Position numbers and translations under genes: made by a program
Part shown: positions 12,978 to 20,404 of the stretch, piece by piece
Numbering within the stretch: the stretch's first letter is position 1
Layout: every line of letters starts with the position of its first letter
The notes under the pieces: model-generated
What the model was told of the DNA's origin: nothing
Database searches by the model: none
What the model saw: the letters and a program-made list of their open reading frames with translations, nothing else
NCBI RefSeq assembly: GCF_000828915.1
Contig: NZ_AP014569.1
Location: forward strand, 1,488,001-1,552,000
Length of the DNA stretch: 64,000 nt
Origin: Serpentinimonas maccroryi
GTDB lineage: Bacteria > Pseudomonadota > Gammaproteobacteria > Burkholderiales > Burkholderiaceae_C
Reading direction: 5' to 3'

Positions 12978-13349
12978 TTAGGGCAACACAAAACGCACCG
13001 TGATCGCCGGCTGATTGGGCCGGTTGATGGTTGCCACGGCGCGCGCGCCGGCTGCCAGTTGCAGATTGGCTTGCAGCATGTTGGGGCCGGCTGGGCTCAG
13101 GGGGGCTTGGGTGCGCGTGGCGCCTTGCAGCACGGTGAGCTGGCCCGTCATCTGGGCCACGTTGAAGGGCTTGCCGTGGTCATCGACAAAAATCTGCGCC
13201 TGCGCGCCGCGCCCGACGAGCTCAAAGCCCAGATCGGCCGCCACCTGCACCACACCGCCGTGCTGCGGCTTGGGCGCGCCGTGGGCGTGGGCGTTGAAAC
13301 CGATCATCGACAGGCCCAGCAGGGCCGCGATTGCGTAGCGTTTTTGCAT
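12978..13349 (-). CDS. Small His-containing periplasmic protein of the metal-efflux operon
   Basis: 123 residues with a signal peptide (MQKRYAIAALLGLSMIGFNAHA, likely cleaved after AHA). The predicted mature N-terminus is HGAPKPQHGGVVQV, a His-rich stretch suited to metal binding, followed by a beta-rich domain. Proteins like this are common beside CzcA/CusA-type pumps and are usually annotated hypothetical; a periplasmic metal-binding accessory role is inference. GGAG upstream selects the ATG at 13349 over the TTG four codons earlier. It is the last gene of the operon, 78 bases after the pump gene, and ends 6 bases from the fabI stop. Confidence 0.75.
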   Translation of the reverse strand: MQKRYAIAALLGLSMIGFNAHAHGAPKPQHGGVVQVAADLGFELVGRGAQAQIFVDDHGKPFNVAQMTGQLTVLQGATRTQAPLSPAGPNMLQANLQLAAGARAVATINRPNQPAITVRFVLP

Positions 13350-13427: not shown

Positions 13428-16400
13428 TCAATACGACTCCTGCACCGCCGCATCGGCGCGGCTGGTGTCGGTTTCGTTGACCAAGCGCTCGGTGGCTGCG
13501 CGCCCGTAGCGCAGATAGAGCACCGGCGTCAGCAGGGTGTCGAGCAGGGTTGAGCTCACCAGCCCGCCAAAGATCACCACCGCCACCGGGTGCAAAATCT
13601 CCTTGCCCGGCGCATCGGCCGCCAGCAGCAAGGGCGTGAGGGCAAAGGCTGCCACCAGCGCCGTCATCAGCACCGGCGTGAGGCGCTCGAGCGAGCCGCG
13701 CACCACCATCTCGGGCCCGAAGCGTTCGCCCTCGAACTTGCACAGGTTGATGTAGTGGCTGATCTTGAGCACGCCGTTGCGGCTGGCAATGCCGGCCAGG
13801 GTGATGAAGCCCACCATCGAAGCCACCGAGAGCGACACGCCCGCGATCCACATCGCCAGCACCGAACCGATCAGGGCCAGCGGGATGTTGAGCATGATGA
13901 TGCCGGTGAGCAGCGCCGATTTGTAGCGCGAATACAGCACCATGAAAATCAGCAGCAGCGACAACAGCGACAAGCCGGCGATCAGCCGCGTGGCCTGCTC
14001 TTGCGCCTGGAACTGGCCTTCGAGCGTGATGAAGGCCCCCGGCGGCAGCGCGCTGCCCGCGATCACGCCGCGCACGTCGGCGATGATGTGCGCCATGTCG
14101 GAGCCGTCGGTGTTGGCATAGACCACGATGCGCCGGCGGCCGTTCTCGCGCCCGATCTGGTTCGGGCCGTCGCTCACCTCCACCGTGGCAAAGGCCGACA
14201 CCGGCACGCTGCCCGAGGGTGTGTCGATCAGCAGGCGCTCGAGGTCTTGCGGGCTGCGCGCGCCGTCGGGCAGGCGCAGCACCAGCTCGAAACGCCGCGG
14301 CCCATCGACGATCACCGCCCCGTGCGCGCCGTCGGTGAGCGCTTGCAGCACGCGCACCGCCTCGCCCGGCGACAGACCGGTCTGCGCAAGCCGCTGGTGG
14401 TCGATGCGCAGCGTGATCTGCGGGATCAGCACCTGTTTTTCGACGCTCAAATCCACCAGCCCCGGCACCGCCTCCAGCTCCTGGCGCAGTTGCGCCGCCA
14501 GGCCGCGCAGGGTGTCGGTGTCGTCGCCAAAGACCTTGATCGCGATCTGCGCCCGCACCCCGGCCAGCAAGTGGTCGAGCCGGTGCGAGATCGGCTGCCC
14601 CACCGCCACCTGCACCGGCAGCAGCGCCAAGCGCTCGCGGATGTCGGCCATCACGGCCTCGCGGTCGCGCGCGCTGGGGGCCAGCCCGACGTCGATCTCG
14701 GCCGCGTGCACCCCTTCGGCGTGCTCGTCGAGCTCGGCGCGGCCGGTGCGCCGCCCCACGTGCGTGACTTCGGGCACCTGCAAGATCAGGGTCTCGGCCA
14801 GCGCACCGATGCGGTTCGATTCCTCGAGCGAGGTGCCGGGCTGCATCAGCATCCCCAACGTCAGCGAGCCCTCGTTGAAGGCCGGCAGAAAAGCGCGCGG
14901 AAAAAACGGCACGCTCGCCGCCGCCAGCGCCACCGCCACCACGGCCGCCCCCAGCAGCAGGCGCGTGCGCCCGAAAGACCAGCGCAGCAGGCGCTCGTCC
15001 CAGCGCTTGAGGCGCACCACCAGCGGGCTGTCGCCGTGCGTCAGGCGCTTCATGCGCGGCAGCAGGTAGTAGCACAGCACCGGCGTGACGGTCATGGCCA
15101 CCGCCATCGACGCCAGAATCGAGACGATGTACGCCACCCCCAGCGGCGCAAACAGCCGCCCTTCGATGCCCGGCAGCGCAAACAGCGGCACGAACACCAG
15201 CACCACGATCAGCGTGGCATAGACGATGCCGGTGCGCACCTCGATGCTGGCCTGGCGCACGACCTCGATCACCGGCTGCGGCTGCGCCCGCAGGCGGTTT
15301 TGCTTCAGGCGGCGCAAGGTGTTTTCCACATCCACCACCGCGTCATCGACCAGCTCGCCGATGGCGATGGCGATGCCGCCCAGCGTCATGACGTTGATGG
15401 TCTGCCCCAGCCAGTGAAACACCAGCGCCGTGGCCGCCAGCGACAGCGGAATGGCGGTGAGCGAGATCAGCGTCGTGCGCGCCGAGAGCAAGAAGGCAAA
15501 GAGCACGATCGCCACCATGATGGCGCCGTCGCGCAGCGCCTCGGCCACGTTGCCGGTGGCCGCCTGGATGAAATCGGCCTGCCTGAACAGCACCTGCGGC
15601 TCGGCCAGCCCGGCGGGGCGCCCGGCCTTGAGCTCGTGCAGCGCGGCCTCGATCTGCTCGTTCAGGCGCAGCGTGTCGGCCCCGGGCTGCTTTTGGATGC
15701 TCAACACCACCGCCGGGGCACCGTTGAAGCCAGCGTCGCCGCGCTTCATGCCGGCGGCAAAGCGCACGTTGGCCACTTGCTGCAGCAGGATCGGGCGCCC
15801 CTCGCGCCAAGCCACCGCCAAGCCTTGCAGATCTTCGATGCGGCTGGTGCGCCCGATGTGGCGGATCATGTACTCGCGGCTGTTGCGGTCGATGAAACCG
15901 CCACCGGCGTTGCTGGCAAAGCCGGCCAGCGCGGCCTCGATCTGCGTCAGCGTGACGCCAAACTGCGCCATGCGCTGCGGGTCGGGCTCGACGCGCAACT
16001 GGCGCACCTCGCCGCCGATGGGGATCACCTGCGACACGCCGGCAATCGACAGCAAACGCGGGCGCAGCACGTAGTCCGCGTATTCGCGCGCCTCCATGGC
16101 CGCCAGCGCGGCGGCATCGGCGCTGCCTGCGGCCTGCGCTTGCAGGGGCAGCGCCAGCAGCATCACCTCGCCCATGATCGACGACACCGGCCCCATGGTC
16201 GGGCTGATCTCGGGCGGCAGTTGCGCGCGCACCAACGACAGCCGCTCGGCCACTTGCTGGCGGTTGCGAAACACATCGGTGCCCCAGTCGAACTCGGCAT
16301 AGACGATCGACAGACCGATGCCCGATACCGATCGCACCCGCGTCACGCCGGGCATGCCGTTGAGCGCGGTTTCGATCGGCACCGTGATCAGTTGCTCGAC

Positions 16401-16580
16401 CTCCTCCGGCGCCATGCCGCCGGCTTCGGTGAGCACCGTGACCTGCGGCTTGTTCAGGTCAGGGAACACATCGACCGGCATGCGCCAGGCGGTGAGGGCC
16501 CCATAGACCAGCAAAATGGCTGCAAAAACCAGCACAAACAGCCGGTTGTTCAGGCTGTGGCGTACGATCCAATTGAACAT
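13428..16580 (-). CDS. Heavy-metal efflux RND transporter, CzcA/CusA family inner-membrane pump
   Basis: 1050 residues, the standard length for HME-RND pumps: [10 protein letters not shown] opening, membrane helix 1 at about 14-32, a large periplasmic porter domain, helices 2-6 from about 340, a second periplasmic domain, and helices 7-12 at the C-terminus. It would export metal cations by proton antiport through a tripartite channel. The TM4 proton-relay region reads [15 protein letters not shown] (406-420), unlike DFG...DGAVV..EN of CzcA or AIGAMVDAAIVMIEN of CusA, so the metal is uncertain. The ATG at 16580 gives the family-typical N-terminus. It follows the adaptor gene by 19 bases. Confidence 0.93.
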
Positions 16581-16599: not shown

Positions 16600-17784
16600 T
16601 CAGCGAATTTGCGCAAGCAGGGCCGCGCCACGCACCACCACCCGGTTGTCGGCACCCAGCCCGGCGTGCACCACCACGGTGCTGGCGTCGAGCGCTCGGA
16701 ACTGCACCGGCTGCGGGATGTAGCGCTCGGCGCCCGACTTGATCCACAGCACCGGCTGGTTGGCCGGGTTGCGCACGATCGCCTCGGCCGGCAGCACAAA
16801 GCCCTGCAGGGTGTCGGTGCGCTGCACGATCACGGTCACCGGCTGGCCCAGCGCCAGCGGCAGTTGCGCGGTGGCTGTTGCGTTGCCGGCGCTGGGTGGG
16901 CTCTGGCGGGCGCGAAACAGCAGCGGCAGCAGGCCGTCGCGCAGCGCGGCACCACTGCCCAGCGGCTCGAGGCGCACGCCGGGCATGCCGGCCAGCGTGG
17001 CGGCGGCGATGCGCTGACCCAGCGCGACATCGGCCGTGCTGGCCTCAACCAGCAAGCGCGCCGGATCGACGATCTCAAACAGCACCTCGCGGCCCTCCAC
17101 CACTTGGCCGGCCAGCACCTCGGCGCGCGCGATCACGCCGCCCACGGGGGCGCGCAGCGCCACGCGCGCACGCTGCCCGGCGCTCAGCGCCTGCTGGCGC
17201 GCCTGCAGGCTGTACACCTCGGCCTGCGCGGCTTCGATCTCGCGCCGCGGCACCGAACCTTCTAGGCTGCTCAGGCGCTGCCAGCGCTGCTCGGCCACGG
17301 TTTGCGCCGCGCGCAGTTCGGCCAGTTGCGCCTGCAGGCTGGCGCCCGCCAGCGGATCGGGCAGATGGCGCACATAGGCCAGCACCTCGCCGGCGCGCAC
17401 GCGCTGCCCCGGGAGCGCAAAACCGCGCGGCCCGGCTTCGATCTGCCCGGTCAGCGGGCTTTGCACGCGCGCACCGGCGTTGGGGTCTTGCACCACCCGG
17501 CCCGGCAGCTCGGTGGTCTGCGGCACTTGCGCGGCTTGAGCCAGCACGGTGCGGAAGCCCATCAGGCGCTGCGAAGCCATGGGCACCTGCACGCTGCCGT
17601 CGGGCAGGCGCAGCAGGCCGTCGGCGCGCGCTGCCGCGCCCGGGGCGTCGAGGTGTTCACCGTCGGGGCCGTGTGCACCCGGAGCGGCCCAGGCGCTGCC
17701 CGCAGCAATGAAGGCCACAAAGCCCAAGGCCAGCGCCCACCGCAGCGCATTGTTGTGCATCCCAGCACGAAAAATAAAGTTCAT
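16600..17784 (-). CDS. Efflux RND periplasmic adaptor subunit (CusB/CzcB family)
   Basis: 394 residues. A signal peptide ends near AWA (31-33), then comes [15 protein letters not shown], which is identical to the predicted mature start of the next protein upstream in the operon. [20 protein letters not shown] follows, the usual entry into the adaptor core. The lipoyl/barrel-sandwich and helical hairpin regions cover about 85-235 ([21 protein letters not shown]; hairpin [22 protein letters not shown]), then beta-barrel and membrane-proximal domains. It bridges the pump and the TolC-like channel. The ATG overlaps the preceding stop as ATGA. Family is secure, metal not. Confidence 0.92.
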
Positions 17785-18425
17785 GATCCCAATCCTTTGC
17801 TCGCACGCACGGCCTTGCCGCGGCGCAAAAACCAAATCCCGCCACCCGCCAGCAGCAGCCCGCCACCCACCAGGGTCAGCGGCAGCGCCAGCTCTTGCAG
17901 CAAGCTGTGTTCGTGGCCGTGACCGCCGGCAGCCGCCGCCGCCACGCTCAGACTGCCCTCGAGCAAATCGGACTGCTGGCCGGCGATCACCGTCAGCACC
18001 AGCGCGTGCTGGCCCGGTTGGCGCAGCAGCGCCAGCAGCGCCGCGTCGCTCAACAGGTAGTCGCCCTGCTCGGGCCTGAAGGCCGCCGTGGCCTGCAGCG
18101 CCCCCGATTCCACGTGCAACTGCGCCTGCAGCACCGGCTCGCTGCTTTTGAAATGATTCAGGTACAGGCTCAGGCCCTCGGCCTGCAGGCGGCCGACGAC
18201 TTCAAACAATTCAGAAGCGGCCTCGAAGCGCGGCAGCGCAGCGGCCCCTGCCAGCGCAGCAGCAGGGGCGTCGAGGTGCTCGCCATCGGGTCCGTGGGCA
18301 CCGGGGGCGGCGTGGCTGCCCAGCGCCAGCGCGCACAGGGCTGCGGCCGCTAGGGTGTGTTTCAGGCTGTGTTTCAGGCTGAGCTTTAGGTGCAGGCGCA
18401 AGGAGTGTTTTGGGTTCGGTGTCAT
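17781..18425 (-). CDS. Periplasmic/membrane-anchored accessory protein of the metal-efflux operon, unknown function
   Basis: 214 residues. A basic N-region with repeated HSLK/HTLA units leads into a signal peptide ending SHA (37-39). The predicted mature start [15 protein letters not shown] is shared exactly with the adaptor encoded next. A beta-rich domain (about 65-165) follows, then HGHEHS and one C-terminal membrane helix (about 183-202) with a basic tail RRGKAVRASKG. Its placement between the channel and adaptor genes, with ATGA overlaps on both sides, suggests equal expression and a direct part in the efflux complex. Similar proteins are known only as hypothetical; a metal-binding or adaptor-partner role is inference. 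Confidence 0.7.
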   Translation of the reverse strand: MTPNPKHSLRLHLKLSLKHSLKHTLAAAALCALALGSHAAPGAHGPDGEHLDAPAAALAGAAALPRFEAASELFEVVGRLQAEGLSLYLNHFKSSEPVLQAQLHVESGALQATAAFRPEQGDYLLSDAALLALLRQPGQHALVLTVIAGQQSDLLEGSLSVAAAAAGGHGHEHSLLQELALPLTLVGGGLLLAGGGIWFLRRGKAVRASKGLGS

Positions 18426-19906
18426 GGCAGGATTCCTAGAGTGAGTTGCAGCCGCGCCTGCGCGATCTGCTGCTGCAGACGCAGCGCTTGCAGCTCGGCT
18501 GCGGCTTGGGCAGCGCCGGCGCGGGTGCGCAGCCAGTCGGCGAGTGCGGTCTCGCTGCTGCGGAAAGATTGTTCGATCAGGGCGGCGCGCTCGCGCAGCT
18601 GCTCGGCGCGCTGCGCTTGGTGCGCGATCTGGGCTTGCAAACCGGTCAGCGCTGCCTGCTGCTGCGCCCACTGGGTCTGCAGTTGCCGCTCCAGTTGCTG
18701 CTGCAGCGCTTGCGCGTGGGCATAGGCGCCTTGGGCTACCACCAGGCGCGGGTGGTGCTGGGCGGCGCTGTGCAAAGGCAGGCGCAGCGTCAGGCCCACG
18801 CTCTGCGCGCTGGCGGCGCCACGGGCCTCGGTCTGCTGCACCCAGCGCGCTTGCAGCTCGGGCGCATCGCGGCGGCTGCGCTCGATCAGCGTCAGTTGGC
18901 GCTGCGCCCACTGGCTGCGCGCATCGGCCTCGAGCAGCAGCGGGTGCTGTGCCAAGGCAGCTGGAGGGGCGCAGGAGGCCCCAAGCCGTGATACTGCCCC
19001 GACATCAGCCGCTGCCGCAACGGCTGATGTGTGCGTGTGGGCCGCAGCTGTGGGTTCGCATGGAGCACCCAGCGCTGCAATGGGCGCGACGCCGCTCAAC
19101 CCAGTCAGGCTGTGCCAGTGCAGCTCAGCCCGCTGCAGTTCGCTGCGGGTCTGCTGCAGCAGTGCCTGCGCGTGCAACAGCTCGGCCTGCGCCGCCAGAC
19201 TGTCGGTGCGCGCGCGTTCGCCTGCCGCCAGCAGCCGCTGCACGTCGGCGGCCAGCAGGCGCAGCGTCTGCACCTCGCTGGTTTGCCATTCCAACGCCAA
19301 GCGCTGCTGCTGCACCGCGGCGGCGGCTTCGAGCAGCGTCTGCGCCAACTGCAGGCGCTGGGCGCTGGCGCTGGCTTGGGCCACGGCGGCAGCGGCAGCG
19401 GCTTGCTGCACGCTGGCTTGGCGCTGCCCCGGCAACCACAGCGGCAGCGCCAGCGCCAGCTCGGTTTCGCGCGCGCCGGTGTTGCGGTTGAGCTGGTCGG
19501 TGCGCCAGCCGGCTTCGAACACCGGCGCACCCGGCAACCACGCCTGGGCCGCAACTTGCTCGGCTTGCGCCAACTGTGCCGCCGCCGCAGCGGCGGCGGA
19601 GTCGGCGCTGCGCGCCCAAGCGGCGTCGAGCGCCTGCGACCAACTGGATTCCTGCGCAGCGCCGGCTGCGCCCGGATTGGACACCACGCCGACTGCACCC
19701 AGGTGGGGCGCCGCAGCGCTTGAGGCCGCAATGGGCCCCACACCGGCCGCGACTGGATTGAACCCAGCAGCCTCAACAGGCGCTCTAAAGGGATAAAAAG
19801 TGGGTGCGGGTGCGGGCAGGGTCGCGGTCTGCGCCCACAAAGCCGGCGCACCCACACCCAGGGCGACGGCAACACCGAGCGCCCGCAAGCGGAACGTGCA
19901 AAACAT
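18422..19906 (-). CDS. TolC-family outer membrane efflux channel (CzcC/CusC-like)
   Basis: 494 residues. Signal peptide MFCTFRLRALGVAVALGVGAPALWA is followed by a ~65-residue Ala/Pro-rich linker and two long helical repeats, rich in Gln, Ala and Leu, characteristic of OEP/TolC proteins (about 90-285 and 315-494). No lipobox cysteine is seen at the cleavage site. It would form the outer-membrane exit duct for the RND pump. It overlaps the next gene by ATGA and follows the CzcI-like gene after 153 bases, in which no gene or clear hairpin was seen. Confidence 0.88.
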   Translation of the reverse strand: MFCTFRLRALGVAVALGVGAPALWAQTATLPAPAPTFYPFRAPVEAAGFNPVAAGVGPIAASSAAAPHLGAVGVVSNPGAAGAAQESSWSQALDAAWARSADSAAAAAAAQLAQAEQVAAQAWLPGAPVFEAGWRTDQLNRNTGARETELALALPLWLPGQRQASVQQAAAAAAVAQASASAQRLQLAQTLLEAAAAVQQQRLALEWQTSEVQTLRLLAADVQRLLAAGERARTDSLAAQAELLHAQALLQQTRSELQRAELHWHSLTGLSGVAPIAALGAPCEPTAAAHTHTSAVAAAADVGAVSRLGASCAPPAALAQHPLLLEADARSQWAQRQLTLIERSRRDAPELQARWVQQTEARGAASAQSVGLTLRLPLHSAAQHHPRLVVAQGAYAHAQALQQQLERQLQTQWAQQQAALTGLQAQIAHQAQRAEQLRERAALIEQSFRSSETALADWLRTRAGAAQAAAELQALRLQQQIAQARLQLTLGILP

Positions 19907-20059: not shown

Positions 20060-20404
20060 TCAGGTGCGCGGAGGTCGGTGCAGAGGATCGGTGTAGCGGT
20101 TGGGCAGGGAATCGGCCCAGTAGTGTGGCAGCCCGGCGAGGGGCAAGGGGAATGCGAGCTGGGGCGCCGCCACGGGCGAAGCCACCACGTGCGAGCCGTC
20201 GAGTGCCACGTGCTCGAAGGAGGCTTGGCTGGCATCGGCGTGGATGCTGCCGTCGGTGTGGTGGTGGTGGCCCACGTCTTTCCAGTGCAGGGCGGCATGG
20301 ACGGCGTCGGCCGAGGCTTTGGCCAGCGCGGGCAAGCCAGCGCCGGCCACGCCTTGCCAGAGCAAGACCCACACAGCCACCAAAAGCACCAGTTTGCGAC
20401 GCAT
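20060..20404 (-). CDS. CzcI-like His-rich secreted protein
   Basis: 114 residues: signal peptide MRRKLVLLVAVWVLLWQGVAGA, then a mature part with LHWKDVGHHHHTDGSIHAD and ending in an Arg/Pro tail. Size, signal peptide and an early His cluster match the CzcI type of small proteins that open czc metal-resistance operons and are linked to their regulation. It is the first gene of the operon that continues with the TolC-like channel, adaptor and pump. An extended -10 sequence ends about 8 bases before the ATG, so the message may be leaderless. Family assignment is by pattern, not strong identity. Confidence 0.7.
   Translation of the reverse strand: MRRKLVLLVAVWVLLWQGVAGAGLPALAKASADAVHAALHWKDVGHHHHTDGSIHADASQASFEHVALDGSHVVASPVAAPQLAFPLPLAGLPHYWADSLPNRYTDPLHRPPRT

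Follow-up and report, generated by a model that had tools for sequence, protein, structure and literature searches.

A matched, co-varying N-terminal tag on the adaptor and a small exported partner protein of a predicted divalent-metal RND efflux operon

Two different proteins of one RND metal-efflux operon, the periplasmic adaptor and a small exported protein encoded next to it (the partner), carry the same 13-residue tag at their predicted mature N-termini, and the peptides of the two proteins change together across dozens of genera. This suggests, from comparison of the sequences, that the two tags work as a pair. The operon lies in a stretch of 64,000 nucleotides of the Serpentinimonas maccroryi genome (contig NZ_AP014569.1, positions 1,488,001 to 1,552,000), here called the window, and all coordinates given without a locus name are positions within it. 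A 16-residue peptide is common to both proteins: in the adaptor it spans residues 33-48 (17641-17688, minus strand) and in the 214-residue partner residues 39-54 (18264-18311, minus strand). The identity, first noticed in a sequence-only reading of the window, is real: the two DNA segments differ at 8 of 48 bases, all of them third positions, giving eight synonymous differences and no amino-acid change. That reading also held that the two proteins have nothing else in common, and this stands, because a BLASTP comparison of adaptor and partner returns the signal peptide and the tag as the only common part. When both proteins were shuffled 2000 times the longest shared word reached at most 8 residues (mean 4.4), against the 16 observed, and in the whole 2.6-Mb genome DNA coding for HGPDGEH is found only at these two sites, one in the adaptor gene and one in the partner gene. 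The 16-mer had further been said to start at the predicted signal-peptidase site. The site does adjoin it, but the first Ala belongs to the signal peptide as its last residue, according to the AxA rule and to the covariation described below, which sets in exactly at the predicted mature N-terminus and so supports this cleavage site. The tags proper, of 13 residues each, are encoded at 18270-18308 for the partner (minus strand, predicted cleavage at A39|A40) and at 17647-17685 for the adaptor (minus strand, A33|A34). Their consensus at the mature N-termini is APGAHGP[N/D]GEHLD.

The operon, all on the minus strand, begins with a gene for a small His-rich exported protein (20060-20404, the nieI position), followed by the genes for an outer-membrane efflux protein (18422-19906, NieC-like, PF02321), the partner (17781-18425), the adaptor (16600-17784, 394 residues, NieB/CzcB-like and of the HlyD/CusB type, with PF13437, PF16576 and TIGR01730), the RND metal transporter (13428-16580, NieA-like, TIGR00914 above cut-off) and a second small exported protein (12978-13349) that starts HGAPKPQHGG. 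The partner gene has an ATGA overlap with both flanking genes, which probably couples the translation of all three (outer-membrane protein, partner and adaptor). The order outer-membrane protein, partner, adaptor, RND protein is kept in 54/54 long loci and the full six-gene order in 36 of them. The two further small His-containing exported proteins that the sequence-only reading had placed in the operon are present and conserved there, the first in 39 and the last in 50 of the 54 long loci. Neither has a Pfam family; the first contains HHHH and a conserved C-terminal RPPR, and the last has the conserved pattern AHG...HGG...FELV...DH. The window partner likewise has no Pfam or NCBIfam family above cut-off, its 55 homologues show no consistent Pfam family, and in a plasmid collection homologues appear just as 'hypothetical protein' or without annotation.

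The predicted proximal metal site of the RND protein comprises 12 residues including LDEHAEGVH (residue 617; 14697-14732, minus strand), conserved in the loci, with a second part, HRLDHLL (residue 666; 14565-14585, minus strand), found in 76 of 81 RND sequences, the other five being gapped there. His and acidic residues thus stand where CusA has its Met triad: M573, M623 and M672 align with G, A and H, so the window pump is not a Cus-type Cu(I) pump. The mature N-terminus of the window adaptor has no Met, and so lacks the Met ligands of the CusCBAF type. The motif DFGX3DGAX3VEN in transmembrane helix IV, which marks the HME1 and HME2 classes (PMC3637150) such as CzcA and CnrA, is not found in the window RND protein. 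HAEGVH and HRLDH are the motifs behind the proposal that nieIC-cep-nieBA of Cupriavidus neocaledonicus STM 6070 represents a new class, RND-HME class 6, with putative nickel efflux (PMC7060636). As in that operon, an exported protein is encoded in the window after the outer-membrane factor and before the adaptor (C-cep-B-A), an order seen also in locus L126 from Cupriavidus sp. amp6, a genome named in PMC7060636. This order together with HAEGVH and HRLDH in the RND protein identifies the partner as the 'cep' protein, and, on the gene order I-C-cep-B-A and the same two motifs, the window operon is a relative of nieIC-cep-nieBA. It differs in the extra conserved small gene after the RND gene, and the main text of PMC7060636, where cep is left without an explained role, mentions neither that role nor shared N-termini of cep and NieB. 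DEHAEGVH and HR[LI]DH (14565-14732) are invariant in 20 divergent relatives with any form of the tag and make a good marker of the pump class.

A scan for DNA coding for HGP[ND]GEH in 399 genomes of the same order as the source found it in 17, in most cases twice, 560-630 bp apart, in the partner and adaptor genes; a few single hits are unrelated, and L037, L039, L040 and L041 were set aside as unrelated pattern matches. To avoid circularity, the search of the genome contigs used an adaptor alignment beginning after the tag. In the best 80 loci, which are those closest to the window adaptor, 79 adaptors could be assessed and 76 have PGAHGPxGEH; of the partners 78 could be assessed and 72 have it, while remoter loci bear other tag forms. 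The partner family itself was found in 58 of those 399 genomes; among 369 genomes of the class it was found in 6. Sequences below 85% identity, 70 for the partner and 63 for the adaptor, were picked for a tag in both proteins; in both sets a 12-residue stretch of the tag is the most conserved 12-column window of the family. Mean pairwise identity within the tag is 0.97 for the partner and 0.96 for the adaptor, compared with 0.25 and 0.20 in the preceding 20 residues (signal peptide) and 0.47 and 0.61 in the body. The synonymous sites of the tag are near saturation and close to the codon-usage background, which rules out recent duplication or copying of the tag. Strong selection on the His/Asp/Glu motif, as had been proposed from the window sequence, is therefore supported; the motif search and codon-change count over many species that had been suggested as its check show the tag kept over synonymous sites near background, and in close relatives the motif proved neither missing nor variable. 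In the tag, G, P and L are as invariant as His. In L118 (Acidovorax sp. GW101-3H11) there are two copies of partner plus adaptor about 3.5 kb apart, with four tags of the same amino acids. The Asn codon at tag position 7 tends to differ within a genome, AAC in one tag and AAT in the other (the same in 27 of 60, with 34.4 expected), perhaps through avoidance of direct repeats and perhaps by chance.

Two positions of the tag are variable, mature residue 1 (A/G/S) and the N/D/G site, and both vary jointly within an operon. Residue 1 is concordant between partner and adaptor in 71 of 81 genomes, against about 32 by shuffling, and the N/D/G site in 70 of 81, against about 54. Mapped onto a tree built from the protein bodies, residue 1 shows about 20 changes in the partner and 18 in the adaptor, and just 24 when the two are taken jointly. 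Simulations of independent change on the tree with a similar number of changes gave at most 49 concordant genomes for residue 1, and shared phylogeny is thus insufficient as the cause of the concordance. Among 40 disjoint pairs of genomes, joint differences at residue 1 were 11 in cis (same genome) and 0 in trans (crossed), and those at the N/D/G site 7 and 0. No covariation was detected in the adjoining signal-peptide residues or at linker positions 14-15, and that at positions 12-13 is slight.

More distant relatives have other tags that are again matched. Partner and adaptor forms include GPGHDHGD/GPGHDHGD, GDGHDHGE/GDGHDHGD, GEGHDHGE/GEGHDHGD, HGDEDHG/HGDEDHG, HGDEVHD/HGDEVHD, HEGEDHGPA/HEGEDHGPA and HSEAAPA/HESAPAP. 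Among 48 distant cognate pairs, 41 are of the same tag class, and the first nine residues have 5.46 identities against 3.57 when shuffled (SD 0.22), with cleavage sites assigned by eye and the statistic taken without tree correction. The pump metal site is constant under every tag form, which indicates that the form of the tag does not track the transported metal, and a change of substrate as the driver of tag form was rejected for the same reason. There are also in-frame fusions of partner and adaptor that keep both tags (L006, 1537-3147; L091, 931-2538; L094, 5317-6984; L108, 2626-4236), laid out as partner, transmembrane helix, second hydrophobic segment, tag and adaptor. Fusions with other tag forms, L013, L015, L020 and more, also retain both. 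This implies that the two copies are not redundant. L070 was excluded from the count of fusions as its reading frame is lost inside the partner. Exceptions are some tag-mismatched pairs (L090, L103, L109 and L134), loss of the tag from the partner in L156-L159 and L162, and loss from the adaptor in L169 and L190.

The partner consists of the signal peptide, the tag, a beta-sandwich domain (17937-18236, minus strand; residues 25-124 of an AlphaFold model, pLDDT about 98), a membrane-proximal His cluster GGHGHEH (17907-17927, minus strand; at least two His in 58 of 63 partners) and, predicted from its sequence, a C-terminal hydrophobic anchor helix (17835-17891, minus strand) followed by basic residues. 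The predicted fold resembles that of CrdA, a small exported protein of the Helicobacter pylori CrdAB-CzcBA pump (PMC9182242; PDB 9ll2, 9ll4). A VIA-align search with the model placed H. pylori CrdA at the top (Z 11.5, 2.2 A over 91 residues; 11.1 for its silver complex), with P19 next at 9.4 and unrelated entries below CrdA. Foldseek alone gave no match to the model at E<=0.001, and a PDB sequence search with a partner profile found nothing useful and no sequence match to H. pylori CrdA. The two proteins are alike in predicted fold and in being small exported products of an RND metal-efflux gene set. They differ in that H. pylori CrdA has a Met-rich loop and no His, whereas the window partner lacks the CrdA motif MMxEMPGM and has His in its tag and before its C-terminal transmembrane helix. 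The tag is disordered in the partner model, and in a model of a natural fusion both folded parts are formed while the tags have pLDDT below 50 and make no contacts, so that no contact between tags is predicted.

How might a matched pair of flexible peptides serve an efflux pump? We give about an even chance to paired metal-binding N-termini, by which metal is handed from a membrane-anchored periplasmic partner to the adaptor and pump. Partner and adaptor would be exported, and on each of them signal peptidase would lay bare a flexible N-terminus offering one and the same set of His/Asp/Glu ligands. Anchored in the inner membrane through its C-terminal helix, the partner with its CrdA-like beta-sandwich would gather periplasmic metal, and its tag would pass the metal to the identical adaptor tag via an intermediate with ligands from both, after which the adaptor would load or switch on the RND pump. 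The tags would be kept matched, and would change together, because exchange between donor and acceptor must avoid an energy trap. Four parts of this scheme we infer: that the tags bind metal, which way it is transferred, that the intermediate shares ligands, and which metal it is, probably Ni2+ or a similar divalent cation. The mechanism is likened to the exchange of Cu(I) between CusF and CusB, which proceeds through a shared-ligand intermediate with Met residues in the disordered CusB N-terminus (PMC6235853), but would employ His/carboxylate tags. With E. coli CusCBAF the window operon shares a small periplasmic protein beside an RND pump, a disordered adaptor N-terminus with (here presumed) metal-binding residues and a proposed shared-ligand hand-off. 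The Cus system differs in using Met for Cu(I)/Ag(I), and no one peptide is repeated between the sites of CusF and CusB, whereas the window tags are identical and rich in His, Asp and Glu and the window partner is predicted to be membrane-anchored and to have a fold other than that of CusF. Slightly short of even, in our estimate, is the prospect that the tags are co-evolving, interchangeable donor and acceptor peptides forming a lineage-specific code while the pump metal site stays unchanged. Counting against paired metal tags are the mismatched pairs, the loss of one tag in some members, the disorder of the tags in the models, and a clade with HSEAAP tags that have one His each, yet an unchanged pump metal site. 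Residue 1 (A/G/S), moreover, is not a side-chain ligand, and its covariation is not obviously explained by pure matching of ligands.

The main rival, which is a better account of the covariation of residue 1 than metal hand-off, is that the tags are docking peptides: both N-termini would bind one pocket that co-evolves with them, whether this lies on the RND protein, on the outer-membrane factor or on a small operon protein, and metal would be incidental. Covariation at the non-ligand residue 1 as well as at the N/D/G site, tag G, P and L residues as fixed as the His, and the strict linkage of the operon in all the long loci speak for docking. We nevertheless think it unlikely, since the distant tags (GxGHDHG, HxxEDHG) retain His, Asp and Glu and not the other residues, a pattern easier to square with metal ligands than with a pocket specific for shape.

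Quite unlikely, we believe, is gene conversion, in which the two tags, each constrained separately, would stay alike through short recombination events between copies lying about 600 bp from one another. There is a weak same-genome synonymous excess (39 matches in cis and 15 in trans, where controls give 0.587; p=0.03), the two tags of one genome use the same codon at 464 of 883 sites where codon usage predicts 433.5, and L077 compared with L067 resembles a converted half-tag. Against this, identical DNA runs are not in excess, the covarying codons agree at synonymous sites no more often than by chance (60 of 139, about 61 expected), and all 81 pairs differ at 2 to 10 of 36 bases, leaving few long identical runs usable for recombination. 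Gene conversion may be a rare contributor and is seemingly not the main cause of the matching.

His clusters are frequent at the N-termini of metal-efflux adaptors, and the operon's small last gene product likewise begins HG..HGG, so the tags could be two independent, generic His-containing N-termini that buffer metal and are alike through their common substrate alone; the constancy of the pump metal site across all tag forms, by which the substrate does not set the form, and matching above that from independent change on the tree make this improbable. A tag for export or processing (signal-peptidase recognition or N-terminus protection), as opposed to efflux, would accord with a start exactly at the cleavage site and a residue 1 limited to A/G/S, and is hardly credible given that no other protein of the genome bears the tag, that it varies widely between related species and that other signal-peptidase substrates are not known to need it.

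The operon, and metal-binding adaptor N-termini as an idea, are already known. Searches of the open-access PMC literature turned up no case of two different pump proteins sharing a duplicated tag that is matched and co-varies, and no occurrence of the string HGPNGEHLD. Detailed knowledge of how metal in the periplasm gets to RND exporters comes mainly from Cu(I), through CusF and CusB. The evolutionary signal described here points to a second route, in a class of pump predicted to transport divalent metal, and pinpoints 13 residues in each protein. The tag pair gives a candidate function to cep, unexplained in PMC7060636, and with so many natural variants of the tag, besides mismatched pairs and fusions, whether donor and acceptor must match is directly testable.
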